A stretch of 64,000 bases of DNA. Origin: Planctomycetota bacterium (lineage in GTDB: Bacteria; Planctomycetota; UBA1135; GCA-002686595). The stretch is taken from NCBI GenBank assembly GCA_016795205.1, contig JAEUHZ010000051.1:62001-126000 (forward strand), read 5' to 3'. The position numbers were made by a program, and so were the translations under genes. The notes under the pieces are model-generated. The model was not told the origin of the DNA. It ran no database searches and was given only the letters and a program-made list of their open reading frames with translations. Positions 121 through 38,024 of this stretch are shown here, in pieces. Positions within the stretch are counted from its first letter, which is position 1. Each line of letters begins with the position of its first letter.

Positions 121-1617
121 TCAGGGCTGTGCGCGGTCCGCCACGCGCCCGATCACGCGGGAGCGGCCGTCCGGGGCGGGGCGCACGTCGAGGGGCTCGA
201 CCCGCATCCGCATGCCCTCCTCCGTGATGAAGGTCACGCTGGCCCCATCGCGGCCCAGCACGCGCCCGGTCAGCGTGCCGCCGGGCAAGAGGATCTCGAC
301 GCGCGGCAGGCTGGCGAGCGCGGCACCGCCGGGCTTCGACAGGCTGGCAGTCGAGCCCGAGATCAAGGCCATGCCGCGCACCTCGGCTGCGTCGAGCGAC
401 ATGCGTCCGAGTTGGACATCGAGCCAGATGCGCGACTGCCCCACGGCGTGCAGACGCCCCTCGATGAACTCGCCGTTCACGAGTTCCGCACGCACCAGAC
501 CCACGTTCACGGTGTGCAGACGATCCGGCCCGTGGATGGCGTCCGATGGGATCGTCGTCTCGAGCCACAGCCCGCGCGTGTCCGCGGCGGTCACGCGGCG
601 TCCGCCGCCCAGGCCGGGTGCGTCGGCCGGCAACTGCGGCGCGCGGGAGGGCTCCGGGCTGCGGGCGAGCTCCGCCGGCGTGGGGGTCGGCGTGGGGGTC
701 GGTGTCGGCAGCAGGACCTCGTCCTGCGAACTCGGGCGGGCTCCGCCGGAGGGATCCGGGCGCACGGACCACGGGTCGACGGCCGCGATCGGCTCGGCGG
801 GAGCCACCGCGACCGGGTCCGACACGGCGCCGCGCTCCGGATCGATCGAGACGGCGGCGGTGCGCTCCGGCTCGTTCGAGTTCGACGCGGACGCCAGCTC
901 CTCCTGGCCGCCCGGGGCCGAGCCCGAGTCCGCGACCTGGGGCGTGCGATCGAGCGCGCTGTCCACGGCGGGCGCCGTGCGCGGCGTGGGCGGGCCGGAC
1001 TTCGCCGGCTTGGCGGGCACGTGGGCGGTCGTGGCCACCTGCGTCGAAGGGAGCAGGCGGTCGAGGCCGTACTCGTTCCAGGCGTACCAGCCGCCCGCGG
1101 CGAGCAGCGCGCTGGCCGCGGTCGCGAGGAGCACGCGGCGCAGGATGCGCGGGCCGCGCGCCACGGCCGGGGGCAGATCCTCCGCCAGCGCGGGTTCGAG
1201 CTCGCCCTCCAGGTCGCTCTCGAAGTCGCCGGTGGGCGGACCATCGGCGCCCTCGCCTTGGTCCTCGAGATCCCCGTCGGCGCTCGCCTCCTCCTCGTAC
1301 GGCTCGCCCGGCGGGGCCGCGAGGGCCGTCGCGGGGTGCGCGACCGCGGCCTGCTCGATGTCGAACAGCCAGGATTCGGTCGGCCCCTCGCTGGAGCCCG
1401 AGGTGCCGCCGCGCAGGTCGGTCTCGAGCCCCAGGAAGTCCGTGGCGCCCGGGTCGGGCTGCCAGCCGGCCACGGGCGGGCTGCCGGCCGCGCGCCCGCC
1501 CGTCGCCGGGCGGTTCGGGACGAGTCCCGCCGGCTCGCTGCCGGCGGACGCGTCGGAACGCGGCCAAGCGGCGGTCCCGGACGGGTCCTGGGGGTCGTTG
1601 GGTCGGGTCTCCGCCAT
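121..1617 (-). CDS. Single-pass membrane protein with P/T-rich linker and tandem Sm/SH3-like C-terminal repeats, function unknown
   Basis: I do not recognise a named family. The chosen start (ATG at 1617) gives 498 residues and has a GAGA sequence just upstream; an upstream in-frame ATG at 1668 adds 17 basic residues without a better ribosome site. The N-terminal part is acidic and low-complexity. One hydrophobic helix rich in Leu/Ala (near residues 162-180) follows an Arg pair, giving a cytoplasmic N-terminus and an external C-terminus. A long disordered linker contains a PTPTPTPTPTP run. The last ~130 residues hold two similar beta-rich units (each with a G-x-(L/I)-x-G-R-(L/V) core) that resemble Sm/SH3-like barrels. 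It is the last gene of the minus-strand run after the actin-like gene, from which a strong hairpin separates it. A scaffold or envelope-binding role is only a guess. Confidence 0.75.
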   Translation of the reverse strand: MAETRPNDPQDPSGTAAWPRSDASAGSEPAGLVPNRPATGGRAAGSPPVAGWQPDPGATDFLGLETDLRGGTSGSSEGPTESWLFDIEQAAVAHPATALAAPPGEPYEEEASADGDLEDQGEGADGPPTGDFESDLEGELEPALAEDLPPAVARGPRILRRVLLATAASALLAAGGWYAWNEYGLDRLLPSTQVATTAHVPAKPAKSGPPTPRTAPAVDSALDRTPQVADSGSAPGGQEELASASNSNEPERTAAVSIDPERGAVSDPVAVAPAEPIAAVDPWSVRPDPSGGARPSSQDEVLLPTPTPTPTPTPAELARSPEPSRAPQLPADAPGLGGGRRVTAADTRGLWLETTIPSDAIHGPDRLHTVNVGLVRAELVNGEFIEGRLHAVGQSRIWLDVQLGRMSLDAAEVRGMALISGSTASLSKPGGAALASLPRVEILLPGGTLTGRVLGRDGASVTFITEEGMRMRVEPLDVRPAPDGRSRVIGRVADRAQP

Positions 1618-1733
1618 CTGTCTCTCGCTGTTCGTGCGTGGGGACCGATCCCGCGGGAGATCGTGCACCGACCGAGTATCGGTCAGCGCCCCGTCGTAGC
1701 CGTAGTCGAACCGCGGGGGTGCAGGAAAGGCAC

Positions 1734-1761
1734 GGAGCCGGCCCCCGAGGGGGCCGGCTCC
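1734..1761 (-). terminator. Perfect GC-rich hairpin downstream of the actin-like gene
   Basis: The 13-base arm 1734-1746 is exactly complementary to 1749-1761, leaving a 2-nt loop (or 12 bp with a 4-nt loop). It lies about 40 nt past the stop of the actin-like gene and before the next gene. No long T-run follows, so termination may need Rho or may rely on stem strength. Confidence 0.55.
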
Positions 1762-1801
1762 GCCGGGCCAACGCGCGCCGCGGACGTGCGGCGCGCAGCG
1801 C

Positions 1802-2923
1802 TCACTTCAGCTTGTCCCAGTACTCGCCCGGCATGTCGTGCGCGATCTTCAGCGCGCCGTTCGCGCCACCGTAGACCGGCTCCTCGATCCGGTAGACCTT
1901 GCCGGCGCCCAGGCGCTGCTTCATCTCGGCCTCGATGGCGAGGTCGAGACCCTTGATCATGCTGCCGCCGCCGGCGAGCAGCACGCGGTTCTTCAGGCGA
2001 TTCTGGAACTCGGGGTCGAACGTCGCGATCAGCTTGGCGAGGCCGTCCACCATGTGCGGGACGATCGAGCGGCAGGCCGTGCGGATCTCCTCGGTGACGT
2101 CGAAGGAGGTCGGCTTGCCGTTCACGGGCAGCTCGACGACGACCGGCGGCATCGTGTCGGAGATGTTGGAGTGCTTCTCCTTGATCTCCTTGATCATCTG
2201 CGTCGTGAACTGCGCTTCGGGATAGCGCTTCGCGATCAGCTCCGCCAGGCGGTTGTCGACGTAGTCGCCGGCGTAGGTGTTCGTGAGCTGGTCCGACTCC
2301 TCGGGCATCGTGCCGTGCATCCGGCAGAGGTCCGTCGTGCCGGCGCCGATGTCGATGACCAAGACGTCGTCGAGCATGTCGAGGCCATAGGCGACCGAGA
2401 ACGGCTCGGAGCACAGCATGACGCTGTCCACGGACTCGCGCGCGGCCTTGATGATCGCGTCCTTGTGGTGGATGGCGGCCTCGGCCGGGACGCCGATGAC
2501 GGCGTACACGAGCTCGTCGCTGCGCGGCTTGGCCAGGCGGATGATCTCGCGGATCAGGTCCGCGGCGGCCTTCATGTTGCCCTCGACGTCGTTGGTCTTC
2601 TCGTTGCTCGTGGCCTTGAGCACGCCCGAGGCCAGCGGACGGTAGAAGCGGCAGGAGAGGCGGTGCTGGACGGCCTCGTCGCCGAACAGGACGTCCTTGC
2701 CGAGCAGCTTGCGCGCCACGACGTCCTTGGGGTAGCCGACGTGCGAGCTGAGGGTCACGCGCTGGCCGTTGCTGGCCGCGATCGACGTGCGGGACGTGCC
2801 CAGGTCCACGCCGAGGTACAGGACGCCACCGTCCTTCTTCGTCGTCGCGCCCTTGTCGGCGGTGCTCGTGGCGGCTTCCGCGCCGCCCTTCTGGCCGATG
2901 TCGGCCGTGGTGTTCTTGGTCAT
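1802..2923 (-). CDS. MamK/MreB-like bacterial actin homologue
   Basis: The 373-residue protein has the ASKHA/actin nucleotide-binding motifs in order: phosphate-1 D-L-G-T-S-R-T at 40-46, phosphate-2 D-I-G-A-G-T-T-D at 191-198 and the adenosine motif A-G-G-G-S at 317-321. Length and motif spacing fit filament-forming actins of the MamK/MreB/ParM group rather than Hsp70 or PilM. The first ~35 residues are Lys/Thr/Ala-rich and probably flexible. The ATG at 2923 is chosen because GGAGAG sits at the correct distance; the longer in-frame extension to 2980 lacks this. It follows the degenerate GGDEF gene on the same strand, with the pilus-like genes further upstream. No mreC/mreD neighbours are present, so it is unlikely to be the cell-shape MreB. 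A filament that positions the envelope machine is an inference. Confidence 0.85.
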   Translation of the reverse strand: MTKNTTADIGQKGGAEAATSTADKGATTKKDGGVLYLGVDLGTSRTSIAASNGQRVTLSSHVGYPKDVVARKLLGKDVLFGDEAVQHRLSCRFYRPLASGVLKATSNEKTNDVEGNMKAAADLIREIIRLAKPRSDELVYAVIGVPAEAAIHHKDAIIKAARESVDSVMLCSEPFSVAYGLDMLDDVLVIDIGAGTTDLCRMHGTMPEESDQLTNTYAGDYVDNRLAELIAKRYPEAQFTTQMIKEIKEKHSNISDTMPPVVVELPVNGKPTSFDVTEEIRTACRSIVPHMVDGLAKLIATFDPEFQNRLKNRVLLAGGGSMIKGLDLAIEAEMKQRLGAGKVYRIEEPVYGGANGALKIAHDMPGEYWDKLK

Positions 2924-3007
2924 CGTTCTCTCCGGATCGTTCGTTCTTCCCTGGCCTGCGCTCCCTCCCATGCGGCGCACGTCGCGCCGACGGGGACTCT
3001 CGCGCGG

Positions 3008-4045
3008 TCACCCGACTGAGGCCGTCTCGGGTGCCGCTTTCTTCTGGAAGGCGAGGTTCTGCTCGAAGATCGTCGACATCATCGCCTTCTTGGCCTGCGC
3101 CTGCGGATCGTCCGCGCGCAAGCCCTGTACGGTCTTGAAGATGGACGCGACCCCGGGGTCGACCATCTTCAGCTCCATGACGCGGCGCAGCTCCTCCTCG
3201 GTGACGCCGATCACGCTGGTCAGCTTCGCGATCCGCCGCTCGAGCATGTCGACCTGGCGCGCATGCTCGCGCATCTGCGCCGCCACGGCCTTCTTGCGCT
3301 CTTCGTAGAGTTCGGCGACCGCCAGTTCCACGACGCGCACCTCGAGCGCTTCGATGTCCGGAGTGCGCACGACCGTGGCGAAGATCCGCTGGATCTTGTC
3401 GACCAGCTCGGCGCGCTGCAGGCCACCCGCGTCCCCGGCCTCGTCCGCCAGCGTCTGCTGTTCCTCGCGGAAGGACTTCGTGGCCGCGGCCAGGTCGTTG
3501 CGCAGGGCGTCGATCTCGCTCTCGGCTTCGCGCCACATCACGTAGCGCCCACCGCCGTGACCGGTGGCGAGGTGCAGCGCGCGTCCGGCGCTCTCGACCA
3601 GGCCCTCGAACGAGGAGTTCGTCTCGGCCAGCAGGTTGTGCGAGGCGCCCAGCGCGAAGCGCAGGGCGAGACCCGCAGCCGACGTGGTGGACTGTGCGGC
3701 GCCAGCCTCGCACAGGAGCCGCCCCAGCTCCCCCATGCGTTCGGTGGAGGTGTTCGGGAAGACCGCCATGATCCGGTCGCCGGACTGGATCGCCATCCCG
3801 ATGAAGCCGTGCTCGCGCGCCACGCGCTTCAAGAGCCCATAGGCCGCGGCCATGGCGGACGACTTGGCCTGCCAGCCCTCGCGCGCCGCCAGATCGTCGA
3901 CGCCCTCGACGGCCACCATCAGGCAGCAGAGCGGATAGCGTTGCGTCCGAGCGCGGTGGAACTCCACGCGCATCACGGAGAGCATCTGCGTGATCGAGAG
4001 GCGCGGAGCCTGCCGTGTCGCGCTGCCGTTCGGTTCCGGGGTCAT
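3008..4045 (-). CDS. Degenerate GGDEF-fold protein with C-terminal coiled coil
   Basis: Residues ~35-170 follow the nucleotidyl-cyclase fold: a C-C-L-M-V-A-V-E first strand, Q-S-G-D-R-I-M-A-V-F-P (87-97) where GGDEF normally stands, R-F-A-L-G-A for the S-I-G-V-A strand, and A-G-R-A-L-H-L-A for the A-D-x-A-L-Y-x-A-K helix. The catalytic motif is reduced to S-G-D-R-I (88-92) and no RxxD inhibitory site is seen, so it is unlikely to make c-di-GMP; it may bind nucleotide or act as a scaffold. From ~172 to the end the protein is rich in Glu, Arg and Ala heptads, suggesting a long coiled coil. No clear ribosome site precedes the ATG at 4045. It lies between the secretin and actin-like genes on the same strand, behind a terminator-like hairpin. 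Confidence 0.75.
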   Translation of the reverse strand: MTPEPNGSATRQAPRLSITQMLSVMRVEFHRARTQRYPLCCLMVAVEGVDDLAAREGWQAKSSAMAAAYGLLKRVAREHGFIGMAIQSGDRIMAVFPNTSTERMGELGRLLCEAGAAQSTTSAAGLALRFALGASHNLLAETNSSFEGLVESAGRALHLATGHGGGRYVMWREAESEIDALRNDLAAATKSFREEQQTLADEAGDAGGLQRAELVDKIQRIFATVVRTPDIEALEVRVVELAVAELYEERKKAVAAQMREHARQVDMLERRIAKLTSVIGVTEEELRRVMELKMVDPGVASIFKTVQGLRADDPQAQAKKAMMSTIFEQNLAFQKKAAPETASVG

Positions 4046-4141
4046 CGACGTGCGGTCACGGTCGGGGCGCTCTGGGCGAGCCGATCCGCGCAGGCTCTGT
4101 CGGGCCCCGGCGCGACCGATCTTGAGCGCGGGACCCGAACC

Positions 4142-4182
4142 GCGGCGGGCCGCCTCGGCACGTCGCCGAGGCGGCCCGCCGC
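4142..4182 (-). terminator. Strong 18-bp hairpin downstream of the secretin gene
   Basis: Arms 4142-4159 and 4165-4182 are perfectly complementary over 18 bp with a 5-nt loop. The hairpin begins 14 nt after the secretin stop on the minus strand and probably ends the pilM-N-O/P-Q transcript. There is no T-tract after it. Confidence 0.65.
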
Positions 4183-4196
4183 GCGCGGAGCGCTGG

Positions 4197-6053
4197 TCAT
4201 TCCCCAGCCGGTTCGGTCTCGCTCGCAGGCGCGGGGACCGAGTTCAAGAGCGCGTCCATCTGCTCCTTCAAGCCGATGCGGCGCCGCTGCAACTCCTGCT
4301 GCAGCAGGAGCTCTTGGTCTTGGCGATTGTAGACAATCGTCGGCGTCACGAACACGATCAGGCTGCGGCGCTCGCGCGTGTTGGCGTCGTGACTGAAGAG
4401 GAAGCCCAGCACCGGGATGTCGCCCAGGAACGGGATCTTGCTGCGCACCTTGATGTCCTGGTCGCTCGTGAGGCCGCCGATGACGGCCGTCTGACCGGCG
4501 TCGAGCATCATGGTCGTCACGATCGTCGAGGAGCGCGTGCGGGGCAGCGCGATGGAACCCTCGAGGCCCGAGGCACCGATCGTGAAGATGTCGAAGCCCT
4601 GCGGCGCGATCGCCGAGTTCGTGCCGGTGCCCGAGAGGCTGGTCTCCTTCGGGATGACCTCCATCATGATGCGGTCGGTGCCGGGCACCACGTTGGGCCG
4701 GATCAGCAACTGGAAGCCGATCTCGACCGGCGAGCCGCCGGCTTCGCCGATCGTGAGCTGCAGACCGCCCGCCTGGCCCTGCTCGGACTTGGCTTCCGCG
4801 TAGCGGATCGTCTCGCCGACGAAGATCGTCGCCTCTTGGCCGTCCAGGGCGATGATCTTCGGCGCCTGGATGACCTCGGTGGACGAGTCGCGCTGCAAGA
4901 GCCGCAACGTGCCCTGGAACTTCTGGAACGAGAGCGAGCCGAAGATCGTGTCGGGCACGAAGGTGGCGCCGCCGTTGCCGGTCGGATCGACGAACGGGCC
5001 CTCGCCGCTGGGGCTGGCGATGATCCAGTCGTCCCAGCCGCCGGAGCCGGTGTCGAACGGCAACGTGATCGGGATCTGGCCGCCGACCATGGTCACCGAC
5101 GCGCCGTCCTGGCCGTAGTCGACACCCAGGTTGAGCAGGTCGCCGTTCAGCGTGGAGACGAACTTGACGTCGCAGAACACCTGCGCCGGCTCGACGTCGA
5201 GCCTGAGCAGCATGTTCCGGATCTCCTCGTGCACCTGCTGGGTGTCACGCACGATCACCACGTTGGCCGAGTCGATGTAGTCGAGGTCGCCCTTCGTGCT
5301 GAGCGCCTTCTTGAGCGCCGCCAGGACGCTGAAGGACTTGGTGAAGTCGGTGCCCCCCGCAGCGGCCGCGCCCGTGGCCTTCTGCTGCGCCTGCTGGATG
5401 AACTCCGACTTGATGACCGGCTTGTAGAGGCTCTTCGGGCGCAGGTAGCGCAACTGGTAGGTGCGCGTCTCGAGTTGCTCTTCGAGCTTCTGCGGCGCGA
5501 CGACGCGCAGCACGCCGTGCCCCTCCTCGACCACCACGAACCCGAGGCTCTTGGCGGTGACGTTGAGCGCCTCACGCCAGGGCACGTTCTCGAAGCGCAC
5601 GTCGATCGTGCCCACCACCTCGGGCCCCACGACCACGTTGGCGTTGGCCGAGACGGCGATGGCCTGGATGACCTTGCGGATGTCCTGCGGGACGTCCTTG
5701 GTCTGGAACGTGACCCGGGCCGGGCTCACGACCGCCAGCACCTCGCCGGGCCGCCGCTCGATGACCGCTCCGACCTTCTCGGCGACGAGCGCCAGCGCGT
5801 CGCGCCAGGGCACGTCGGAGAGCTCGATGGTCACCCGCTGACCGGAGATCTTGCGCTTCTCGTCGTCTGGGTGGTCGATGACGACGATGTTGGCGCCCGA
5901 GCGGGCGCGCAACTCGGCGACGACGTCCTCCAGACTACGGTCGGCGATGTTGAGGTTGACCCGCGCGTCCAGGCTCGGGGCCTGGGCGGCGGCCGCCGTT
6001 GCCACGAGGGGCAGGGCGAGAGCCAGGGACAGGACGAACATGCTCTTCTTCAC
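4197..6053 (-). CDS. pilQ: Secretin (PilQ/GspD family outer-membrane pore)
   Basis: The 618-residue precursor begins with a signal peptide (K-K then a Leu/Ala core ending A-A-A-A-Q-A). Two STN/secretin N-type modules follow (about 30-110 and 115-185), then a region with an A-A-A-A-G-G insert, and the C-terminal secretin homology domain (about 330-570). The family signature is visible as V-R-S-K-I-P-F-L-G-D-I-P-V-L-G-F-L-F, followed by the R-R-S-L-I-V-F-V-T-P-T-I-V strand. It forms the outer-membrane gate of type IV pilus or type II secretion systems. Translation starts at GTG 6053 with GGGAG about 8 nt upstream. It is the last gene of the pilM-N-O/P-Q run. PilQ is preferred over GspD because the upstream genes are PilM/N/O-like. 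Confidence 0.93.
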   Translation of the reverse strand: MKKSMFVLSLALALPLVATAAAAQAPSLDARVNLNIADRSLEDVVAELRARSGANIVVIDHPDDEKRKISGQRVTIELSDVPWRDALALVAEKVGAVIERRPGEVLAVVSPARVTFQTKDVPQDIRKVIQAIAVSANANVVVGPEVVGTIDVRFENVPWREALNVTAKSLGFVVVEEGHGVLRVVAPQKLEEQLETRTYQLRYLRPKSLYKPVIKSEFIQQAQQKATGAAAAGGTDFTKSFSVLAALKKALSTKGDLDYIDSANVVIVRDTQQVHEEIRNMLLRLDVEPAQVFCDVKFVSTLNGDLLNLGVDYGQDGASVTMVGGQIPITLPFDTGSGGWDDWIIASPSGEGPFVDPTGNGGATFVPDTIFGSLSFQKFQGTLRLLQRDSSTEVIQAPKIIALDGQEATIFVGETIRYAEAKSEQGQAGGLQLTIGEAGGSPVEIGFQLLIRPNVVPGTDRIMMEVIPKETSLSGTGTNSAIAPQGFDIFTIGASGLEGSIALPRTRSSTIVTTMMLDAGQTAVIGGLTSDQDIKVRSKIPFLGDIPVLGFLFSHDANTRERRSLIVFVTPTIVYNRQDQELLLQQELQRRRIGLKEQMDALLNSVPAPASETEPAGE

Positions 6054-6074
6054 TTGCCTTACTCCCTCGCGGTC

Positions 6075-7478
6075 TCAGAACCGCCGAGCGAACACGATGC
6101 CGCGGAAGATGAACTCGATTTCCTCGCGCTTGATGGCGAGTACGACGAGGTCGTTCTGGAGCAGGTCGCCTTCCGTGACGGTCCTGCCATTGATCATCGC
6201 GACCGGGGCTCCGCCCTCGATCAGGAACACGCCGCCCACGGTCATCTTGACCTTCTCGAAGTCGAGGACGGTGCGGGCCTCGTAGGCCAGGTCGCGCAGG
6301 CGCTCGACGAGGGGCTTCCGCAGGGGATCGTTCTCGATCGTGGCGAGACGGTTGTCCACCATCCCGAACGCCTCGAGCATGAGCTTGAACTCGCCCTTCT
6401 CGCGGTGGGCGACCATCGAGCTCTCGATCTCCTTGAGCTGGGCCTCGGTCGGGCCGCGGCCCTGCTCGGCGGACGCCACCGTCGTGCGCAGCTGGCTGAC
6501 GACGTCGACCACCTCGACCCCCAGGCGCGTCTGCGACGGGACGTAGACGATGGACTTCTCGGACAGGACCCGGCGGATGTCCTCCTCCAGCTTGGCGAGG
6601 AGTTCCTCCAGCTCGGCCCGCGTGGTCATCTCGACGATCACGTTTTCGGCGACCTTGACCGCCTCCCACTTGCCCAGGACGGCCTGCGTGCGCTCCACCA
6701 GGGACTGCACGAGGTCCATCTGCTCCTGGACGGTCAGCGGGCTGGGCGCGTCCGGCTGCACCGGCACGCGCGGGTCGATCCACGGATCGCGGCGCCCGCG
6801 GGCGCCGCGGTAGGCGTAGGTCGAGACCTGCAACGATCCCTTGCGCCGATCGATCTCGCCGAGCAGCAGGTCGCGCTTGCGGTCGTAGCCGTCGATCTTG
6901 ATCGGCTTCTGGTCCTTCTTGGGCTCGTAGACGTAGGTCTCGACGTCGATCGTGACCTTGTGCGCCGGGACGCCCTCCTTCTCGAGCTGATTCCGCTGTG
7001 TGGCGCTGATGCGGAAGGCCGGAACGCGCATGAACCGCGAGTGGCTCTCGACCAGGTCGAGGAAGTCCAGGTACTGGAAGGCGTCACCTTCCAGGCTGAG
7101 CGTGTAGGCCACCTTGTCGAAGTCGTTCTTCTCCTTGCGGTTGGTCTGCTCGGCCTTCTTCTTGAGGCCCGCGATGCGCACGCCGGATTCGTCGGAGAAG
7201 CGCTGGATCGTGCGCACCAGGTTGTTGACGTCGTTCGTGTCGGGGAGGATCCCCTTCATGACCTCGGTCAGCTCGCGCAGCACGATGACCTCGCGCTCGA
7301 GCGCGCCCGTGCCCTCGATGAGCTTGCGGGACGTCTCGATGTTCGCGCGCAAGCTGGCCACGTTGGCGCGCGCCTCCTCGATCTGGCCGTGCTGCCACCA
7401 CAAGAGCGTGCCGAGTCCGATGCAGGACAGAACGCCGCCGCCGATCACGGCGAGCCAAGCCTTGCGGATGTTCTTCAT
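6075..7478 (-). CDS. PilO-PilP-like fusion protein (inner-membrane alignment subcomplex)
   Basis: The 467-residue protein starts with a short basic stretch and one transmembrane helix (about 8-27), then a periplasmic coiled coil and ferredoxin-like PilO-type region up to ~200. A central linker (about 205-260) is followed by a helical part (260-400). The last ~55 residues contain G-G-V-F-L-I-E-G, V-A-M-I-N-G-R-T-V-T-E-G-D and a closing R-G-I-V-F strand, the pattern of the PilP/GspC HR domain. In the classical pil operon PilO and PilP are separate proteins; here one chain appears to cover both. The ATG at 7478 shares its A with the TGA of pilN (TGATG), so the two are translationally coupled. 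No lipobox is present, as expected if the HR domain is tethered by the PilO helix. Confidence 0.8.
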   Translation of the reverse strand: MKNIRKAWLAVIGGGVLSCIGLGTLLWWQHGQIEEARANVASLRANIETSRKLIEGTGALEREVIVLRELTEVMKGILPDTNDVNNLVRTIQRFSDESGVRIAGLKKKAEQTNRKEKNDFDKVAYTLSLEGDAFQYLDFLDLVESHSRFMRVPAFRISATQRNQLEKEGVPAHKVTIDVETYVYEPKKDQKPIKIDGYDRKRDLLLGEIDRRKGSLQVSTYAYRGARGRRDPWIDPRVPVQPDAPSPLTVQEQMDLVQSLVERTQAVLGKWEAVKVAENVIVEMTTRAELEELLAKLEEDIRRVLSEKSIVYVPSQTRLGVEVVDVVSQLRTTVASAEQGRGPTEAQLKEIESSMVAHREKGEFKLMLEAFGMVDNRLATIENDPLRKPLVERLRDLAYEARTVLDFEKVKMTVGGVFLIEGGAPVAMINGRTVTEGDLLQNDLVVLAIKREEIEFIFRGIVFARRF

Positions 7479-8182
7479 CACTTGGCTCCCTGGCCCGCGG
7501 CGGGCTTGACGGCCGGCTTGGCGGCGGGCTTCTTGGCCTCGGCGGCCGGCTTGCCGAGCCGCTCCTCGGTCGACTTCAGGGTCAGGGACATCGGGAACGA
7601 CCAGGCCACCGGCGGCATGAGGGTCGTGTCCACGTTCGTCTGCGAGCCTTCCGGCGGAGCCGGCGGCTGGAAGTCGGCGATGAAGGTCGAGCCCTCGAGG
7701 TCCTCGAGGAAGTTCGCCACGTGGGCGAACTTGTCGGAGCCCGAGTGGCCGGCGGCACGCACCGAGCCCGGCACCTTGGCCTTGGGGTCCGTGCTCTGCG
7801 TGACCTGGAGATCGTCGAACCAGACCAGGTGTCGCTGGCCGTTCTGGCCGCGATTCACCACGTCGATCAGCTCGTCGAGCTTCTTCGTCCAGGAGATCCG
7901 GCTGGCGGTGATGCCGGCCAGGGTGTCCTCGCGCGACTTGTACTGCTTGGACTCGCTCTGCAGCGAGGTGTGGTAGTTCACCTGCGGCGTCAGTCCGTCC
8001 ATCTCCGTCTGGAGCGACGCGGCCTCGCTCTCGATCTCGGCCTGGACGCCGATCTTCTGCCAGGCCCACCAGGTCGCGAGGCCGGCGTTGACGGTGACCG
8101 CCGCGACGAGGGCCAGCACCAGCTTGAAGGGCGTGCGCGCCTTCTTGCGGTATTCCTCGGGGAGTAGGTTGATGCGGATCAT
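7478..8182 (-). CDS. pilN: PilN-like inner-membrane assembly protein
   Basis: The 234-residue protein opens with M-I-R-I-N-L-L-P, the conserved PilN cytoplasmic peptide that docks into PilM. A transmembrane helix (about 18-44) and a periplasmic coiled coil follow. The C-terminus is a Lys/Pro/Ala-rich tail (K-P-A-A repeats) that is unusual for PilN. The ATG at 8182 overlaps the pilM stop (ATGA) and the stop overlaps the next gene's ATG, so pilM, pilN and the fused pilO/P gene form one coupled unit. Confidence 0.88.
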   Translation of the reverse strand: MIRINLLPEEYRKKARTPFKLVLALVAAVTVNAGLATWWAWQKIGVQAEIESEAASLQTEMDGLTPQVNYHTSLQSESKQYKSREDTLAGITASRISWTKKLDELIDVVNRGQNGQRHLVWFDDLQVTQSTDPKAKVPGSVRAAGHSGSDKFAHVANFLEDLEGSTFIADFQPPAPPEGSQTNVDTTLMPPVAWSFPMSLTLKSTEERLGKPAAEAKKPAAKPAVKPAAGQGAK

Positions 8183-9234
8183 GAGGTGCGCACTCGCGAG
8201 GCGAGTCCCACGGCGACCACCAGGGTGGGGGCCCAGGTTTCGAGTTCCTCCACGTCGACACGGCTGGCGTCCACGCGCAGGCCCTCGAGGGGGTTCCAGG
8301 TCCGGGCCTTGCGACCCGTCGACTGTTCGATGTGCTGGGCGGCACCGGGCGCGAGCACGCCGCCACCCGAGAGCAGGATCTCTTCGACCTGCACGCCCTC
8401 GTGGTGCTCGACGTAGTCGAGGCTCAGGGTCAGCTCGCCCACCAGGTCCTCCAGGACCGGCTGGATGGCGGTGTTGACCTCGAGTTCGTGGGCTTCGCTG
8501 GCGCGCTTGATGGCCTCGGCCTCGAAGTTCTCGATCGACATGGCGCGGGCCACCGCCTGCGTCATGTCGGCGCCGCCGATGTTGATCTCACGGCTGAAGC
8601 AGGTCTCGCCGCCCACGATCACGTTGATCGAGGTACGGGTGGCGCCGACGTCCACCAGCGCGATGGCCGTCTTGATCTCGCCCTCGGTGACTTCGTCGGC
8701 CGGCAGGCCGCAGAGCTCCCAGGCGTTCGCCAGCGCGAAGACGTCGACGTCGATCGCCACGGGCGAGAGGCCCTGGCCTTGGACGAGCTGGATGCGCTCG
8801 TCGATCGCGCGCGACTTGCAGGCTGCCAGCAGGACCGCCTGCTGCTCGCCGTCCTTGCCCTTGGCCGCTTCCCCGGAAGCCGGCGTGCGCTTCAACGGCA
8901 TCAGGTCGAGTTGGACCTCGTCCAGCTCGAAGGGCAGGTACTTGTCCGTCTCGAAGCGGATCGCCTGCCGCAGCTCGCCTTCCGACATCTTCGGCATCGT
9001 CACGTAGCGCACGACGACCGACTGTCCGGCGACCGAGGTCACGACCTTCTTCGACTTGAACTTGCCGGCCTGGAAGCAGGCGGCGACGGCGTCGGAGGCG
9101 CTGCCTCCGGGCGGGATCTCGGCCCGGGCGAATCCGGTCACGACGGGCTCGGGACCCTCGAGCGAGAGCTCCACCGCCTTGACGACGGAGCTCCCGAGGT
9201 CCAACCCGACGAGGCTCTTCTGTCTCTTGAACAC
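8179..9234 (-). CDS. pilM: PilM-like actin-fold cytoplasmic assembly protein
   Basis: The 351-residue protein has the PilM/FtsA-like actin fold: L-V-G-L-D-L-G-S-S near the N-terminus, R-F-E-T-D-K-Y-L-P-F (the R-(W/F)-E-x-x-x-Y-(I/L)-P-(F/Y) PilM signature), A-L-V-D-V-G-A in phosphate-2, and I-L-L-S-G-G-G in the adenosine loop. PilM binds nucleotide and the N-terminal peptide of PilN, linking the cytoplasmic motor to the envelope complex. The GTG at 9234 is chosen because a long GGGGGAGGAG lies 8 nt upstream; the in-frame ATG at 9297 would place that site inside the gene. Its stop overlaps the pilN start. Confidence 0.92.
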   Translation of the reverse strand: MFKRQKSLVGLDLGSSVVKAVELSLEGPEPVVTGFARAEIPPGGSASDAVAACFQAGKFKSKKVVTSVAGQSVVVRYVTMPKMSEGELRQAIRFETDKYLPFELDEVQLDLMPLKRTPASGEAAKGKDGEQQAVLLAACKSRAIDERIQLVQGQGLSPVAIDVDVFALANAWELCGLPADEVTEGEIKTAIALVDVGATRTSINVIVGGETCFSREINIGGADMTQAVARAMSIENFEAEAIKRASEAHELEVNTAIQPVLEDLVGELTLSLDYVEHHEGVQVEEILLSGGGVLAPGAAQHIEQSTGRKARTWNPLEGLRVDASRVDVEELETWAPTLVVAVGLASRVRTS

Positions 9235-9513
9235 GGACGCGGCTCCTCCCCCGATGGCCGAGGTGGCGGCTGGATCGCGCCCGGTCCACGCGGACACCGG
9301 ATGGACGCTCTCCTGGCCGGGGTCCGGGATCGGCGCGCACCGCCGTCGGGGTTGAGGGCCCCGTGAAGGAAAGCGCGCGTGGCCCGCGGCGCGGCGCCCG
9401 CGCAGGAGGGCCTGGAAGTCTCTTCCCCCCCGAGCGCTCGCGGCCGGCCCGCTCGGACCCCGGGGTCCGGTCCGGACGCCGAGGCGGGGCCGCAGGGCGC
9501 CTGGCGGCGCGGC

Positions 9514-9789
9514 TCAGTCCAACTCGCCGAAGCCCGAGCGCACCAGCGAGGCGACGCCCTGCACGAGGTCCTGGGCGTCGTCGCCGCGCGCGCGCAGGGT
9601 CAGGGTGGCTTCGCAGGGCGCGCACAGGGTCATGAGCTCCAGGATGCTCTTGCCATCGGCTTCGACCCCGTCGCAGGCCACGCGCAGCGAGGCGCGGTGG
9701 CGCTGGGCCAGCGCGACGATGGCCTGGCAGGGACGGGCGTGGAGCCCAGCCGCGTTCGGCACGCGCACGTCGAGGACGACCTCGGCCAC
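9514..9789 (-). CDS. HPr-family phosphocarrier protein (NPr-like)
   Basis: The 91-residue protein matches HPr throughout. The phosphorylatable histidine is H17 in G-L-H-A-R-P, and the regulatory serine equivalent to Ser46 is S48 in A-D-G-K-S-I-L-E-L-M. Start is GTG at 9789, 23 nt after the ptsN stop; no strong ribosome site is visible. Being downstream of hpf and ptsN, it resembles NPr of the nitrogen PTS. No enzyme I or HPr kinase gene is in the window, so the phosphate source is unknown. C-P-C-type cysteines (C56, C59) are unusual for HPr. Confidence 0.92.
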   Translation of the reverse strand: MAEVVLDVRVPNAAGLHARPCQAIVALAQRHRASLRVACDGVEADGKSILELMTLCAPCEATLTLRARGDDAQDLVQGVASLVRSGFGELD

Positions 9790-9812: not shown

Positions 9813-10292
9813 TCAGACGGCGGACTTTTCCTTGAGGAGGTCGATCAGCTCGATCTTCGTCTTCACGCGGATCGCGAAGCGGCGGAAGTCGGCGTCGCGC
9901 GACAGCCGCGCGATCCAGCGCATCATCTCCAGGTGGCGCTCGGGATCGTGTGCGTCACCGGCCTTCTCGGGGCGCAGCACGGTGAAGACCACGTGCACGG
10001 GAAGCGAGTCCACCGCCGCCCACGGCAGGCCCTCGGGATGGATCGCGAGGCTGCACACCGCGCGCTCGATGCCGCGCACCTTGACGTGCGGGACCGCCAC
10101 GTGCGCCCCGACGCCGGTCGAGCCGAGCTTTTCGCGTTCGAGCAGCGCGCGCAAGGTCTCCGGGCGCGCCGCGGCCTCGAGCCCCCCGGCGTCGACGAGG
10201 AGGTCCGTGATCTCCTCGAGCACCAGCTCCTTCGTCGGGGCCACGAGCTTCGTCGTGCAGTGCTTGGTCTTGAAGAGCTTCCAGAATTCCAT
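9813..10292 (-). CDS. ptsN: PTS EIIA domain protein, PtsN (EIIA-Ntr) type
   Basis: The 159-residue protein is a single EIIA fructose/nitrogen-type domain. The active histidine is H69 in V-A-V-P-H-V-K-V, preceded by the typical E-R-E-K-L-G-S-T-G-V-G helix-turn. There is no EIIB or EIIC, so it is probably a regulatory acceptor from the HPr encoded next. It sits between hpf and the HPr gene, as in proteobacterial rpoN operons. The ATG at 10292 has no Shine-Dalgarno sequence, but TATACT lies 7 nt upstream (see the separate site). Confidence 0.93.
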   Translation of the reverse strand: MEFWKLFKTKHCTTKLVAPTKELVLEEITDLLVDAGGLEAAARPETLRALLEREKLGSTGVGAHVAVPHVKVRGIERAVCSLAIHPEGLPWAAVDSLPVHVVFTVLRPEKAGDAHDPERHLEMMRWIARLSRDADFRRFAIRVKTKIELIDLLKEKSAV

Positions 10293-32535: not shown

Positions 32536-33378
32536 TCAGGAGTGGTGCGGGCCCGGCTTGCGGCGCCGCATGATGAACTTGTCCGTCGGGTGGTTCGGGC
32601 GGCGCGTCTTGCCGCCCTTGGCGAGCACGCCCGAGGGCGAGCACGGGTGGCGACCGCCCGCGGTGCGGCCTTCGCCGCCGCCCATCGGGTGGTCGACCGG
32701 GTTCATGGCCGTGCCGCGCACGACCGGCCGGTGGCCCATGTGGCGCTTGCGGCCGGCCTTGCCGAGCTTGACGTTCTGGTGGTCCGTGTTGCCGATGCGT
32801 CCGATCGTGGCGCGGCACTCGACGTGGACCTTGCGCAGCTCGCCGGAGGCCAGGGTGACGACGGCATAGCTGCCTTCGCGGGCCGTGAGCTGCGCCACGG
32901 AACCGGCCGAGCGGCAGATCTGCGCGCCCTTGCCGGCGTGCAGCTCGATGTTGTGGATCTCGAGGCCGACGGGGATGTCGGCGAGCTTCATCGAGTTGCC
33001 CAGCAGCGGATCGGCCTGCTTGCCCGACATCAGCGTGGAGCCGACCTGCAGGCCGAGCGGCGCGATGATGTAACGCTTCTCGCCGTCCGCGTAGTGCAAG
33101 AGCGCGATGTTCGCCGAGCGGTTGGGGTCGTACTCGATCGAGAAGACCTTGGCCGGGACGCCGTCCTTGTCGCGCCGGAAGTCGATCACGCGGTACATCC
33201 GCTTGTTGCCGCCGCCGCGGTGACGGCGCGTCTGGTGGCCGTGGTTGTTGCGGCCGCCGGTGCGACGCACGGGCCGGAGGAGGCTCTCCTCGGGCTCGGT
33301 CCGCGTGATCTCCGCGTAGTCGAGGACGGTGCCGAAGCGGCGTCCCGCGGAGGTCGGTCGGTAGGTCTTGATGCCCAT
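32536..33378 (-). CDS. rplB: Ribosomal protein L2
   Basis: The 280-residue protein shows [16 protein letters not shown] and the active-centre-proximal segment [18 protein letters not shown]. The N-terminus is a few residues shorter or more divergent than usual but otherwise complete. Confidence 0.98.
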
Positions 33379-33405
33379 GGTTTCCTGGTTCCTTGGCGCG
33401 CGGCG

Positions 33406-33696
33406 TCAGAGGATCTCGATCGTGTCGCCCTCGCGGAGCGCCACCATGGCCTTCTTCCACTCGGGGGTCAGGCCCGCCACCCAGCCGCGACGGCGCACCT
33501 TGGGGGTGATCCGCAGCGTGTTCACCGAGACGACCTTGACCTTGAACAGCTGCTCGATCGCCGCGCGGATCTCGACCTTGTTGGCCGAGATGGGCACGCG
33601 GAACGCGTAGGCGTTGCGCTTGACCTGGTCGTCGGTGGCCTTCTCGGTCACGACCGGCGCCTTGACGATCTGGTACAGGTCCTCGAGACGGCTCAT
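33406..33696 (-). CDS. rplW: Ribosomal protein L23
   Basis: The 96-residue protein shows A-P-V-V-T-E-K-A-T, Y-A-F-R-V and I-R-A-A-I-E-Q-L-F-K-V-K-V. It forms the exit-site docking point for SRP and trigger factor. Its ATG overlaps the rplD stop (ATGA). Confidence 0.97.
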   Translation of the reverse strand: MSRLEDLYQIVKAPVVTEKATDDQVKRNAYAFRVPISANKVEIRAAIEQLFKVKVVSVNTLRITPKVRRRGWVAGLTPEWKKAMVALREGDTIEIL

Positions 33697-34331
33697 GCCG
33701 CACCTCCGTCGGTCTTCGTGCCCACGCGCTCCGCCAGCGCGGTCATGGCCGCGGGCTCGGCGATGATCGTCCCGCCGTTGACCACGTCGCGCGCGTTCAG
33801 GTCGGCGGCCGTCCGCACCACGACGCCCGGGAAGTTGCGGAAGGACTTCCACACGTTGGCGTTGGGCGCGGAGAGCAGCACCAGCGCGCGCCGCGGCGCG
33901 CCCAGGTCCGCGAGGACCTTGCGCGCGGACTTCGCGGAGGGCGCGTCGAGCCGCGGCAGGGTGGCCAGCACCAGCTCGCCGTCCTGGAGCTTGCCGTAGA
34001 GCGCCGAGCGCAGGGCCACGCGCCGGGCAGTCTTGGGCATGTGGTAGCCGAAGTCGCGCGGGTGGGGCCCGAAGATCGTGCCGCCCTTGCGCCACAGCGG
34101 CGACTTCTTGTCGCCCGCGCGCGCGCGGCCCGTGTGCTTCTGCTTCCACGGCTTGGCGTGGCTGCCGTGCACCTCGGCGCGCGTCTTGACCTTGGCCGTC
34201 CCCTGACGCTGGTTGGCGTGGTACATGACCACGGCGTCCTTGAGCGTGCGGTACAGGACGCGCGTGCCGAAGGGCGCGCTGTCGAACTCGGCGGTGCCGA
34301 CCTTGCCGGCGTCGTAGCTCTGGACCTTCAT
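33693..34331 (-). CDS. rplD: Ribosomal protein L4
   Basis: The 212-residue protein shows the extended tunnel loop with K-P-W-K-Q-K-H-T-G-R-A-R-A-G-D-K-K-S-P and W-R-K-G-G-T-I-F-G-P. In E. coli L4 also represses the S10 operon by binding its leader. Confidence 0.98.
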   Translation of the reverse strand: MKVQSYDAGKVGTAEFDSAPFGTRVLYRTLKDAVVMYHANQRQGTAKVKTRAEVHGSHAKPWKQKHTGRARAGDKKSPLWRKGGTIFGPHPRDFGYHMPKTARRVALRSALYGKLQDGELVLATLPRLDAPSAKSARKVLADLGAPRRALVLLSAPNANVWKSFRNFPGVVVRTAADLNARDVVNGGTIIAEPAAMTALAERVGTKTDGGAA

Positions 34332-34334
34332 GGC

Positions 34335-34982
34335 TCAGCTCCCCGCCTTCTTCTGCTTCAGGCCCGTGCGGGCGGCCTGGACCTCGACGAACCCGTTGTT
34401 CGGACCGGCCACCGAGCCGCGCAGGTAGATCAGGTTGCGCGCCGGGTCGACCTTCACGACCGCCAGGTTCTTCGAGGTGCAGCGCTCGTTGCCGTAGTGG
34501 CCAGCGAGGCGCTTGCCCTTGACGACCTTGCCGATGCGCTTGCTGGCGAGCGAGCCGGGATCGCGCACGTTCATGCAGCCGTGCGTCTCGGGGCCGCGGT
34601 TGAAGCCGTGGCGCTTGATCGTGCCGGCGAAGCCGCGCCCTTTCGAGGTGCCGATCACGTCGACGACGTCGCCGACCTGGAACACGTCGACCTGGACGGT
34701 GTCGCCGACCTTCTTGTCGGCCGGAGCGGCCAGGCGGTCCTCGCGCAGGAAGCGCTTCGTGGCGACGCCGGCCTTGGAGCAGTGCCCCACGCGCGGCTTG
34801 GCCACGCGCTTGTCGGCCACGTCCTCGTAGCCGAGCTGGATGGCGTCGTAGCCCTCGCGCTCCTTGGTCTTGACCTGCGTGACGACGCACGGACCGGCCT
34901 CGACCACGGTCACTCCCGTGACCGTGCCGTCGTCGGTGAACAGCTGCGTCATACCGCGCTTGCGTCCTAGGATCAGCGTCAT
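34335..34982 (-). CDS. rplC: Ribosomal protein L3
   Basis: The 215-residue protein shows G-R-K-R-G-M-T-Q-L-F, G-T-S-K-G-R-G-F-A-G-T-I-K-R-H-G-F and G-P-E-T-H-G. A weak AAGGA lies very close to the ATG, while AGGGAG lies 11 nt upstream. Unusually for this operon, 466 nt separate it from rpsJ. Confidence 0.97.
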   Translation of the reverse strand: MTLILGRKRGMTQLFTDDGTVTGVTVVEAGPCVVTQVKTKEREGYDAIQLGYEDVADKRVAKPRVGHCSKAGVATKRFLREDRLAAPADKKVGDTVQVDVFQVGDVVDVIGTSKGRGFAGTIKRHGFNRGPETHGCMNVRDPGSLASKRIGKVVKGKRLAGHYGNERCTSKNLAVVKVDPARNLIYLRGSVAGPNNGFVEVQAARTGLKQKKAGS

Positions 34983-35448
34983 GAGTCCTTGAACTCCCTG
35001 GTGGACCCCCGTCGGCGCGGAGGGAGCCGCGCGCGCCAGGAGATCCGTGGCCACCGGTTCGACCAGGTGGTCCCCCACGTCAGGGGACTCGGGACGCCTG
35101 GCCACTCGGCGGGCTCGGGCGTCGCGCGGACGCGGGCGGCGCGAGCGGTGGAGCTCGCGACGTCGCGGCCGCGGGACGACGCCCGCGCCTGGGGAGCGCT
35201 CGCCGCGCCACATCCCGCCCCGCGTCGGGGCCGCCCCGTCGGGGCGTGGCCCACGCGGGGCCCAGGACGCGCGCGAAGCGTGGCGACGGGCCGGAGATCC
35301 GGCTCGGCGCGCTGCGCTCCCGTGTCGTCAGAAGTGGAAAAGAATCGATCCCGCCCGTGTGGCCGGACTCGCGTCCGACTCCCACGCGGCGCGTCCTCCG
35401 TCGGGAGGCTGCTCCCGGGGCGGGGAGCACGCGCCGCGCTCTCGGCCG
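34983..35448 (-). other. 466-nt spacer between rpsJ and rplC
   Basis: No convincing gene on either strand. It is GC-rich with several short hairpins, such as GCTCCC/GGGAGC (35411-35428) just after the rpsJ stop and GCCCC/GGGGC with a repeated CGTCGGGGC near 35223-35245. A local A-rich patch lies at 35330-35345. It may be a long structured leader or carry an unrecognised promoter for rplC onward. Confidence 0.5.
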
Positions 35449-35754
<306 letters not shown>

Positions 35755-35887
35755 GGTCGTCGGGCGGTCCGCGGCCGGGATCGGCGCGGAAGTTCGTCTT
35801 CGGGCGTGCGCGTGCGGGGGGAAACGTCTCGACGCCGCCAGGGTCCGCGCGTGCCGCGCGAGGCCTCCGTGGCGCAAAGGGCCGAGG

Positions 35888-35916
35888 ATGGTACTCGTGC
35901 CCCCCCACCCCGTCAA
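35888..35916 (-). promoter_or_regulatory. Promoter for rpsJ and the S10 genes
   Basis: TTGACG (35911-35916) and TACCAT (35888-35893) are 17 nt apart on the minus strand, between the fusA hairpin and rpsJ. Confidence 0.75.
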
Positions 35917-35917
35917 C

Positions 35918-35939
35918 GCTCGGGGGGAGTTCCCCGAGC
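35918..35939 (-). terminator. Hairpin after fusA
   Basis: GCTCGGGG (35918-35925) pairs with CCCCGAGC (35932-35939), beginning 9 nt after the fusA stop. It directly abuts the next promoter's -35 box. Confidence 0.55.
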
Positions 35940-35948
35940 GGGCCCGGA

Positions 35949-38024
35949 TCAGGTCCACACCAGGCCGCGCGCGGCGAGCTCGTCCTCGGGGACGTGGCGC
36001 AGGCCGGCCGGGGTCATGGCGAAGCTCGCGCGCCCCTGCGACAGGGACCGGACGGCGGTCGCGTAGCCGAACATGCGCGCCAGCGGCACCTGCCCCACGA
36101 GCGTGCGGTACGGCCCCTCGCTGCGCACATCCTCGACGCTGGCCTTGCGCGCGTTCAGGTCGGCCAGGATCCCGCTGGCGAACTCCGCCGGGGACTGGAC
36201 CTCGAAGGCCATCTGAGGCTCGAACAGGCCGACCTGCGCGCTCTCCAGCGCCTGCCGCAGGGCCAGGGTCGCGGCCTGGACGAAGCCCAGCTCGGCGTCG
36301 CGGCGGGGTTCCGAGGCCCCCCCCACGACCTGGATCGCCACGTGGACCAGCGGGTGGCCGAAGCGCGGCCCGGCCTGGGCCTCGAGCGTGAGGGCCTCGC
36401 TGATCGCGCGCCGGAACGGCTCGGGGACGGGGCATCCCGGGGCCCAGGCCACGCGCGGGCGCTCGAGGGCCTCGTCGACCGTCACCTCGACCTCGACCGC
36501 GCCGAAGACCTCCTTGCCCCCCACCACCTTCTCGACCCGCGCGGCGCCGCGGCCGCCCGACAGCAGGGCCTCGCGGTAGGCCACCCGCGGAGCCCCCGTC
36601 TTGACCCCCACGTGGAACTCCGATTCCAGCCGGTGCCGCACGACCTCCAGGTGGAGTTCCCCCATCCCCGACACGAGCCACTGGCCCGTCTCGGGGTCCT
36701 CGCGCAGGTGGAAGGTCGGATCCTCGTGCTCGATGCGCAGGAGCGCGGCGCGCAGCTTGTCCCGGTCGGCCGAGCTCGTGGGCTCGACGACCAGCGACAG
36801 GACCGGCTCGGGGACCTCCAGCCGCTCCAGCACGATCGCCGCGTCCTTGGCGCACAGCGTGTCGCCCGTGGCCGTGGCCTTGAGGCCCGTCAGCGCCACG
36901 ATGTCGCCCGCGACGGCGCGCGGCAGCGCCTCGCCCGCCTGGGCGTGCATGCGCAGGATGCGCGCCACGCGCTCGAACTTGCGTGTGCGCGGATTCCAGA
37001 GCGAGGCCCCCGGCTCGACCGCCCCCGAGTAGATGCGCACGAAGGTCAGGTCGCCGTGCGGCAGCGCCTGGAGCTTGAAGGCCAGTGCCGCAAAGGGTGC
37101 CGCCGGATCGCAGGGACGCTCGACGACGTCGCCGATCTCCGGGTCGCGCCCCTGCACCGGCGGCAGGTCGAGCGGCGACGGCAAGAGGTCGACCACCGCG
37201 TCGAGCAGCGGGTGGATCCCGAAGTTCCGCTGCGCCGCGCCGCACAGGACCGGGATCAGGGTCCCCGCGATCGTGCGGCGGCGCAACGCCGCGAGGATCA
37301 GCTCGCGCGGCGGCTCGCGCCCCTCGGTGACGTACCCGAGGAGCGCCAGATCGTCCTCGGCCAGCTTCTCGAGCAGCTCCGCGCGCAGGACGAGCACGTC
37401 GTCGCGCGCCCCCGCCGGGATCCCGGCCTCGTCCGCGCGCGCCTCCGTGCGCTCCGCGTCGAACCTCCACGTCGCGAGGCTCACGAGGTCGACGAGCCCG
37501 TCGAGCACCGGCGCGCCGCCCGTTTCCGACGGGGAAACCAGCGGATACTGCACCGGGATCGCCGGCTCCCCGAGGCGCTTCCCGAGGTCGCCCGCGACGC
37601 GCAGGTAGTCCGCCCCGACCTTGTCGAGCTTGTTCACGAACGCGAAGTACGGCACGTGATGCCGCTTCATCTGGCGCCAGACCGTCTCCGACTGCGCCTG
37701 GACGCCGCGCTCCGCGTCGAGCACGAGCACCGCCCCGTCGAGCACGCGCATCGAGCGCTCGACCTCGATGCCGAAGTCGACGTGCCCGGGCGTGTCGATG
37801 AGCTGGATGCGATGCCCGCGCCAGGGCACCGACGTCGCCGCCGCGGTGATCGTGATCCCCCGCTCCCGCTCCTCCTGCATCCAATCGAGGACCGTCGTGC
37901 CCTCGTCGACGTTCCCGAACCTGTGCTCGACGCCCGTGTCGAAGAGGATCCGCTCCGAAACGGTCGTCTTCCCCGCGTCGATGTGCGCGGCGATCCCGAT
38001 GTTGCGGATGCGGGCGGGATCCAT
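35949..38024 (-). CDS. fusA: Elongation factor G-type GTPase, divergent (possible EF-G2/recycling type)
   Basis: The 691-residue protein has all GTPase motifs: A-H-I-D-A-G-K-T (13-20), R-G-I-T-I (55-59), D-T-P-G-H (77-81) and N-K-L-D (131-134). Domain order II-V follows, with [16 protein letters not shown] near the C-terminus. It departs from canonical EF-G in domain IV: the usual Q-S-G-G-R-G-Q-Y-G-H loop region reads [11 protein letters not shown]. Its switch I ([20 protein letters not shown]) is closer to the EF-G2 type. Planctomycetota and mitochondria have two specialised EF-Gs, so this may be the ribosome-recycling one. The ATG at 38024 has no ribosome site but a TATCCT 9 nt upstream. 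Confidence 0.9.

Follow-up and report, generated by a model that had tools for sequence, protein, structure and literature searches.

The closest described relatives of the system reported here are actins of the MamK family and the proteins that work with them. In Magnetospirillum, MamJ is reported to tether MamK and to speed its turnover (PMC5059902, PMC10653835), and E143 and D161 are given as the ATPase residues of MamK (PMC5059902). The coiled-coil proteins Mad20, Mad23, Mad25 and Mad26 are described as working with MamK and Mad28 (PMC12748827). BeeR of Verrucomicrobiota is described as a MamK-related actin of non-magnetotactic bacteria that carries an extra N-terminal segment (PMC11929497). 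Saltatorellin, a MamK-like actin of the Saltatorellus clade of Planctomycetota, may drive shape-shifting according to its report (PMC11032199), and the G+C content given for this clade is 70% (PMC11481906). MamK-type actins occur in many planctomycetes without sign of magnetosomes. Here we analyzed a stretch of 64,000 nucleotides (the window; G000:C3:62001-126000) with a G+C content of 71%, from a Planctomycetota genome, G000, of 4.62 Mb in 84 contigs (~90% complete). It encodes a MamK-family actin (P0006) and, upstream of it, a partner protein (P0005) to which we give the name PAR. With a probability of roughly 0.6, the genes at 1802-4045 form a cytoskeletal module, in which PAR is the dedicated, co-inherited adaptor or regulator of the actin, and which is unrelated to the pilus genes beside it. 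The kind of actin is already known (MamK/saltatorellin-type); the partner is the new part. Our literature search, outside which the saltatorellin preprint lay, found no description of a dedicated partner of a planctomycete MamK-type actin. The six genes under study all lie on the minus strand; the module and its parts are as follows.

1802..2980, minus strand: MamK-family actin (P0006), 392 amino acids, actin core from residue ~53
3008..4045, minus strand: PAR (P0005), 345 amino acids, with a GGDEF fold, a coiled coil and a conserved C-terminal module
3530..4009, minus strand: degenerate GGDEF-fold domain of PAR, residues ~13-172, no RxxD
3770-3784, minus strand: motif position of PAR, reading SGDRI, residues 88-92
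3035..3346, minus strand: conserved C-terminal module of PAR, residues ~234-337, placed by profile
1732..1763, minus strand: 14-bp hairpin 3' of the actin gene, likely the end of the PAR-actin unit

The identity of the actin is established. P0006 scored 423.4 bits against the NCBIfam MamK model NF040964 (cut-off 400), so that the MamK-like actin named in the initial annotation of this DNA holds. It shares 131 of 331 aligned residues with the MamK chain 5ljw, and in this alignment its E192 and D210 stand at E143 and D161 of MamK with the spacing of 18 unchanged, which means that the ATPase residues are kept. In contrast to the MamK-MamJ pair of Magnetospirillum, no magnetosome markers were found here, and PAR has an architecture of its own, with a GGDEF head and a C-terminal module. 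The window actin is like saltatorellin in phylum, in being MamK-like and in G+C content (71% vs 70%), and we liken the two on these points only. For the same genomes of that clade, Wiegand et al. reportedly described in 2019 both a MamK-like protein that forms filaments and type IV pili. With BeeR it shares being a MamK-related actin in non-magnetotactic bacteria, but it is not a BeeR, as it scored 195.4 bits on the BeeR model against a cut-off of 530. A divergent second actin, 47% identical, was seen in genome G075 (L092, G075:C315) beside the standard operon.

The GGDEF assignment of PAR was settled by its fold. Searched alone, P0005 had no significant Pfam match (best GGDEF_2, E = 0.046), and it is not among the 23 of 25 aligned PAR proteins that match the Pfam GGDEF model PF00990. 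Its AlphaFold model, however, matched solved GGDEF domains with a best Z of 21.9 over 154 residues at 1.7 Å (6eib, a diguanylate cyclase domain). The mean pLDDT of the model was 77.7, with values of ~84-96 across residues 21-120. The GGDEF fold gives way to two long helices, and a last helix comes after a stretch modelled with low confidence. The catalytic motif is broken, since the signature position reads SGDRI; the GG[DE]EF signature is kept in none of the 25 aligned proteins and in none of the 47 GGDEF-headed PARs. The C-terminal module, of ~110 residues, is marked across the group by an RRIxKL coiled coil, the motif GVASIYRxVQGL and a terminal IFEANLxLQ helix; in the window these elements are a LERRIAKL coiled coil, GVASIFKTVQGL and a final amphipathic helix with IFEQNL. 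A GGDEF fold, a broken catalytic motif and a coiled coil had all been read from the letters in the initial annotation, and all three stand.

We followed the pairing of PAR and actin throughout the window's order (128 genomes, G000 included) and in a draw of 392 Planctomycetota genomes, in which the actin family was called at an E-value of 1e-30. Within the order, 118 actin places spanning 104 genomes were compared, with the exclusion of contig-end actin fragments (G101, split in two; G023:C433; G023:C745; G044:C479) and of extra matches in G075 (C315 and the second C199 row). At 115 of these places, the next gene upstream lies on the same strand, is separated by a gap of -70 to 298 bases, and ends in the PAR module. 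A P0005 match was found in all 105 actin-bearing genomes vs 3 of the 23 actin-less ones (Fisher p = 1.5e-20). Neighborhoods were inspected at 40 loci of 8-20 kb around actins and clustered for 41 loci; among the clustered loci, the PAR-actin pairing persists while every other neighbor changes. The pairing is therefore order-wide, and the earlier grouping of the GGDEF-fold protein with the actin is borne out.

It is also partly phylum-wide. In the phylum draw, the PAR module was present in 97 genomes, the actin family in 141 (98 over the curated cut-off), and both in 95; the actin was found in 95 of 97 PAR-positive vs 46 of 295 PAR-negative genomes (p = 1e-52). Of the 68 PAR matches listed outside the order, 47 immediately precede an actin that is also listed. 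Ten of the 21 non-adjacent ones fall in 8 genomes with no actin among the matches listed and in G165 and G248, which have no actin. When 40 outside-order loci were searched at a loose threshold, the module was found upstream at all 20 loci picked because a PAR was known there, and at 6 of the 20 picked with none listed beside the actin. Within the sensitivity of the pattern used, 76 named loci with the module included no named phylum except Planctomycetota: the named PAR relatives come from Planctomycetota or from metagenome bins labelled only "bacterium", and a Lake Pavin bin is the closest. An actin lies within the set distance at 56 of the 76 and not at the other 20, and 56/76 is an underestimate: L203 is a false negative, as the frame of its actin reaches further upstream, L246 and L276 run out within 180 bases, and others, among them L263, L266 and L271, hold a second PAR that lies apart from the actin. 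As a separate observation, family f7 of the order (G077-G099, mostly small genomes) lacks actin and PAR in 20 of 23 genomes and gave a PilQ-type secretin match in 0 of 23; its three genomes with an actin also have PAR.

Duplicated pairs were inherited together. Each of 14 genomes holds two complete PAR-actin pairs, giving 28 pairs. The actin and PAR trees, which were built by a quick method and have many weak forks, give matching paralogue clades: one consists of G003:C66, G048:C97, G012:C6, G028:C73, G050:C171 and G041:C90, and the other of G013:C35, G014:C113, G004:C18, G026:C24, G027:C71 and G039. The distances among actins and among PARs are correlated over the 28 pairs (0.513), and of the 16,383 alternative arrangements, in which partners are exchanged inside genomes, only 13 fit as well.

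While the tail of PAR is conserved, its head varies. In the window's family, f1, no BY-kinase-like gene adjoins the pair and most PARs (47) are GGDEF-headed. In families f2-f6 and f8, PAR is ~262 residues long and its N-terminal module is short, and a gene for a BY-kinase-like P-loop ATPase lies upstream of it at 39 of 39 loci. A second structural model, of an f8 PAR, was of low confidence N-terminally (block means of 47-56 in the first 60 residues). All four ATPases scanned pass TIGR01007 (132.6, 137.2, 125.5 and 129.5 bits; cut-off 108.05), as BY-kinases, the tyrosine autokinases of CpsD-Wzc type, would; the putative kinase differs from them in sitting in an actin operon. Among the GGDEF-headed PARs, 36 of 47 have RxxD nine residues before the signature position, which we take to be the I-site spacing of PleD (R359, D362, GGEEF 368-372). 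RxxD is absent from the window PAR and its nearest relatives (G036, G037:C109 and G034:C72), and the second PAR copy of G000 (C53) keeps it. Most PAR relatives are thus like degenerate GGDEF receptors of cyclic di-GMP (c-di-GMP), which have the fold without the catalytic motif, but PAR is fused to a coiled coil and an actin-linked module, and the window copy has no RxxD. A nucleotide-sensing adaptor, as the initial annotation proposed, consequently finds some support in the family (36 of 47 members) and none in the window's own copy.

In the arrangement that we propose, the coiled coil would make PAR a dimer, and the C-terminal module would touch the actin subunit or filament. By analogy, PAR could act on this actin as MamJ does on MamK and so tether the filament and tune its turnover. 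Mad20, Mad23, Mad25 and Mad26 are also coiled-coil proteins that go with MamK-type actins, a likeness by description only, and unlike PAR they belong to magnetosome clusters. The exchangeable head of PAR would carry an input or bring a cargo. The input head would be the degenerate GGDEF domain in f1, and the short N-terminal module together with a separate BY-kinase-like ATPase in the six sister families. In most f1 members the GGDEF head may read c-di-GMP at the I-site; the window PAR is probably a protein-protein docking head, as its I-site is gone. We infer the contact with actin, the effect on the filament, the ligand and the control by c-di-GMP from these comparisons. In this group of uncultured planctomycetes, the conserved tail and varying head of PAR suggest that a system controlling the bacterial cytoskeleton had gone unnoticed. 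A partner that travels with the actin across the phylum and has an interchangeable head can be studied through one named protein and its short motifs, and if the head does read c-di-GMP, a second messenger that governs lifestyle would be linked directly to an actin filament.

Several observations weigh against a dedicated module. Gene pairing does not prove that PAR touches actin, and their physical interaction is deduced from it. Compared with solved structures, the PAR module matched only the coiled-coil background. The three actin loci of the order without an adjacent PAR all belong to one genus, g11 (G020-G022), in which G021 has an unlinked PAR and G020 and G022 have unlinked P0005 matches in open frames of 272-273 amino acids. 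At the level of the phylum, 46 of 141 actin-positive genomes have no PAR match, and 14 of the 40 outside-order loci have no PAR module even at the loose threshold. The pair distances used above also carry species history, which the swap test controls only within the 14 genomes. Finally, G028 and other f1 genomes have more PAR modules than actins (four PAR matches and one actin in G028), so PAR may serve other partners too; the surplus suggests several adaptors for one filament.

Other explanations of the pair differ in how far they fit. The pairing might be no more than the outcome of common ancestry and of an operon inherited as a block, PAR having another target, for example the export of polysaccharides together with the BY-kinase. 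Polysaccharide systems are where homologues of BY-kinases usually work, and PAR paralogues remote from any actin exist in several genomes. We nevertheless regard this as unlikely, because an actin is present in nearly all PAR-positive genomes (95 of 97), the pairing is kept while other neighbors change, and co-inheritance is specific to each paralogue. A more tenable, though still doubtful, proposal is that all PARs of the window's family act as c-di-GMP effectors, the second messenger switching the filament. The GGDEF fold, the loss of the active site in 47 of 47 and the retention of RxxD in 36 of 47 would agree with such an effector; against it, RxxD is missing in 11 of 47, the window copy included, and could be retained for structure, and PARs outside f1 have no GGDEF-like head (0 of the 26 PAR matches at the 40 further loci). 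A fuller version holds that the actin cytoskeleton is controlled directly by c-di-GMP: a pseudo-GGDEF adaptor would sit on MamK/saltatorellin-type filaments via its C-terminal module and couple the messenger to filament behavior, perhaps to the shape changes of the Saltatorellus clade, and the sister families would use the BY-kinase-like ATPase for the same input. This version we hold to be somewhat less probable than an effector role within the family. Positioning of magnetosomes, with the actin as the MamK of a magnetotactic planctomycete, is extremely improbable. The MamK-family score over cut-off speaks for it, and magnetosome genes have been reported in some Planctomycetota (PMC12713370). 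However, models of MamA and MamQ found nothing over cut-off in G000 (~90% complete), where weak matches equaled the background of control genomes, no mam-like neighbor was recognized among the actin neighbor clusters identified by Pfam, and 105 of the order's 128 genomes have the actin. A magnetosome function is thus not supported by the two marker models; NF040962, tried as a further marker, proved to be an unrelated family and was uninformative.

A different reading concerns the pilus genes that precede the cytoskeletal module on the same strand. The initial annotation had tentatively joined both halves, by their proximity, into a single machine in which the filament would position the PilMNOQ complex via the GGDEF adaptor. 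The genes and hairpin on either side of the module are listed here.

8179..9297, minus strand: pilM (alternative GTG start at 9234), neighboring pilus unit
7478..8182, minus strand: pilN, named by position, neighboring pilus unit
6075..7481, minus strand: pilO with a possible PilP-like tail, neighboring pilus unit
4197..6053, minus strand: PilQ-type secretin, neighboring pilus unit, outside the conserved pair
4142..4182, minus strand: hairpin between secretin and PAR, perfect 18-bp stem, terminator-like
121..1668, minus strand: acidic/proline-rich protein of no known family, 3' of the actin

The tight same-strand layout, shared by the window, G036 and G037, favors a single machine. The comparison of neighborhoods across the order led us to reject a conserved pil-actin unit. 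At a secretin threshold of E 1e-40, secretin was found in 102 of the 128 genomes, actin in 105 and both in 99, and the two adjoin in only 3 of these 99 (G000, G036 and G037). In G052 and G054, each assembled as one contig, 2.7 Mb and 1.7 Mb lie between them; in G005, also on one contig, the distance is 0.54 Mb. In the remaining 93 they lie on different contigs of drafts, by which nearness is not excluded. The PAR-actin pair thus stands without nearby pil genes in 96 of 99 genomes (93 with different contigs, 3 with the same contig and more than 0.5 Mb between), and G085, G089 and G096 have the pair without any secretin match at this threshold; the actin and GGDEF genes therefore occur independently of the pil genes in relatives. 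Likewise, among the 40 inspected loci around actins, a pil secretin was seen only in G000, G036 and G037, and at seven secretin loci checked, pilO precedes the secretin in 7 of 7 and PAR follows it in 2 of 7. Six f8 loci (L110:9229-14924, L090, L091, L095, L096 and L097) carry a different secretin, of 846-933 amino acids with TPR repeats, convergent to the BY-kinase-PAR-actin operon. A secretin next to an actin operon there is a point for a combined machine; its opposite strand and its ExbB/ExbD genes are points against. Within the window itself, the two halves are parted by the hairpin (z = -4.0; 1 of 200 shuffles equally stable; no U-run after the stem), a strong one as first described. A combined pilus-actin machine is very unlikely, and the pil genes probably came to lie beside PAR-actin through local, lineage-specific rearrangement. 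Where the surroundings of the f8 TPR secretin were examined, genes for ExbD and ExbB come next, an unusual combination of secretin and ExbB/ExbD motor.

The pilM-pilN-pilO(P)-secretin genes are best explained as a type IV pilus alignment complex of the ordinary kind, with termination of its own. Family models confirmed pilM (TIGR01175, 216.5 bits, cut-off 133; Pfam PilM_2, 180 bits), PilO (Pfam, 27.5 bits, cut-off 22) and the secretin, whose Secretin domain scored 129.7 bits, over cut-off, while the PilQ model TIGR02515 gave 202.7 bits, below its cut-off of 284. All genes of the originally described pil set are present; pilN and the PilP part of pilO/P are less firmly named. pilN had no Pfam match and a single weak NCBIfam match, to the PilM-like Amuc_1101 family (E = 6e-8), so its name follows mainly from gene position. 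The PilP-like tail is a sub-threshold T2SSB match (22.6 vs 28.4 bits), which makes the pilO/P fusion likely and not proven. The pilus ATPases had been placed outside the window, and the PilB/PilT/PilC genes were indeed found on the same contig, G000:C3, at 34320-36029 (MshEN+T2SSE), 36040-37107 (T2SSE) and 33058-34296 (T2SSF). These other pilus genes of G000 lie 25-29 kb past the window edge, with RNase E/G, L21, Obg and EF-G in between.

The acidic protein after the actin is kept there only in G000, G036 and G037 among the 41 clustered loci. It has one likely membrane segment and no family match. Directly upstream of pilM, on the minus strand, are genes for HPr (9514-9789) and a phosphotransferase system (PTS) EIIA-type protein (9813-10292), both over their Pfam cut-offs.

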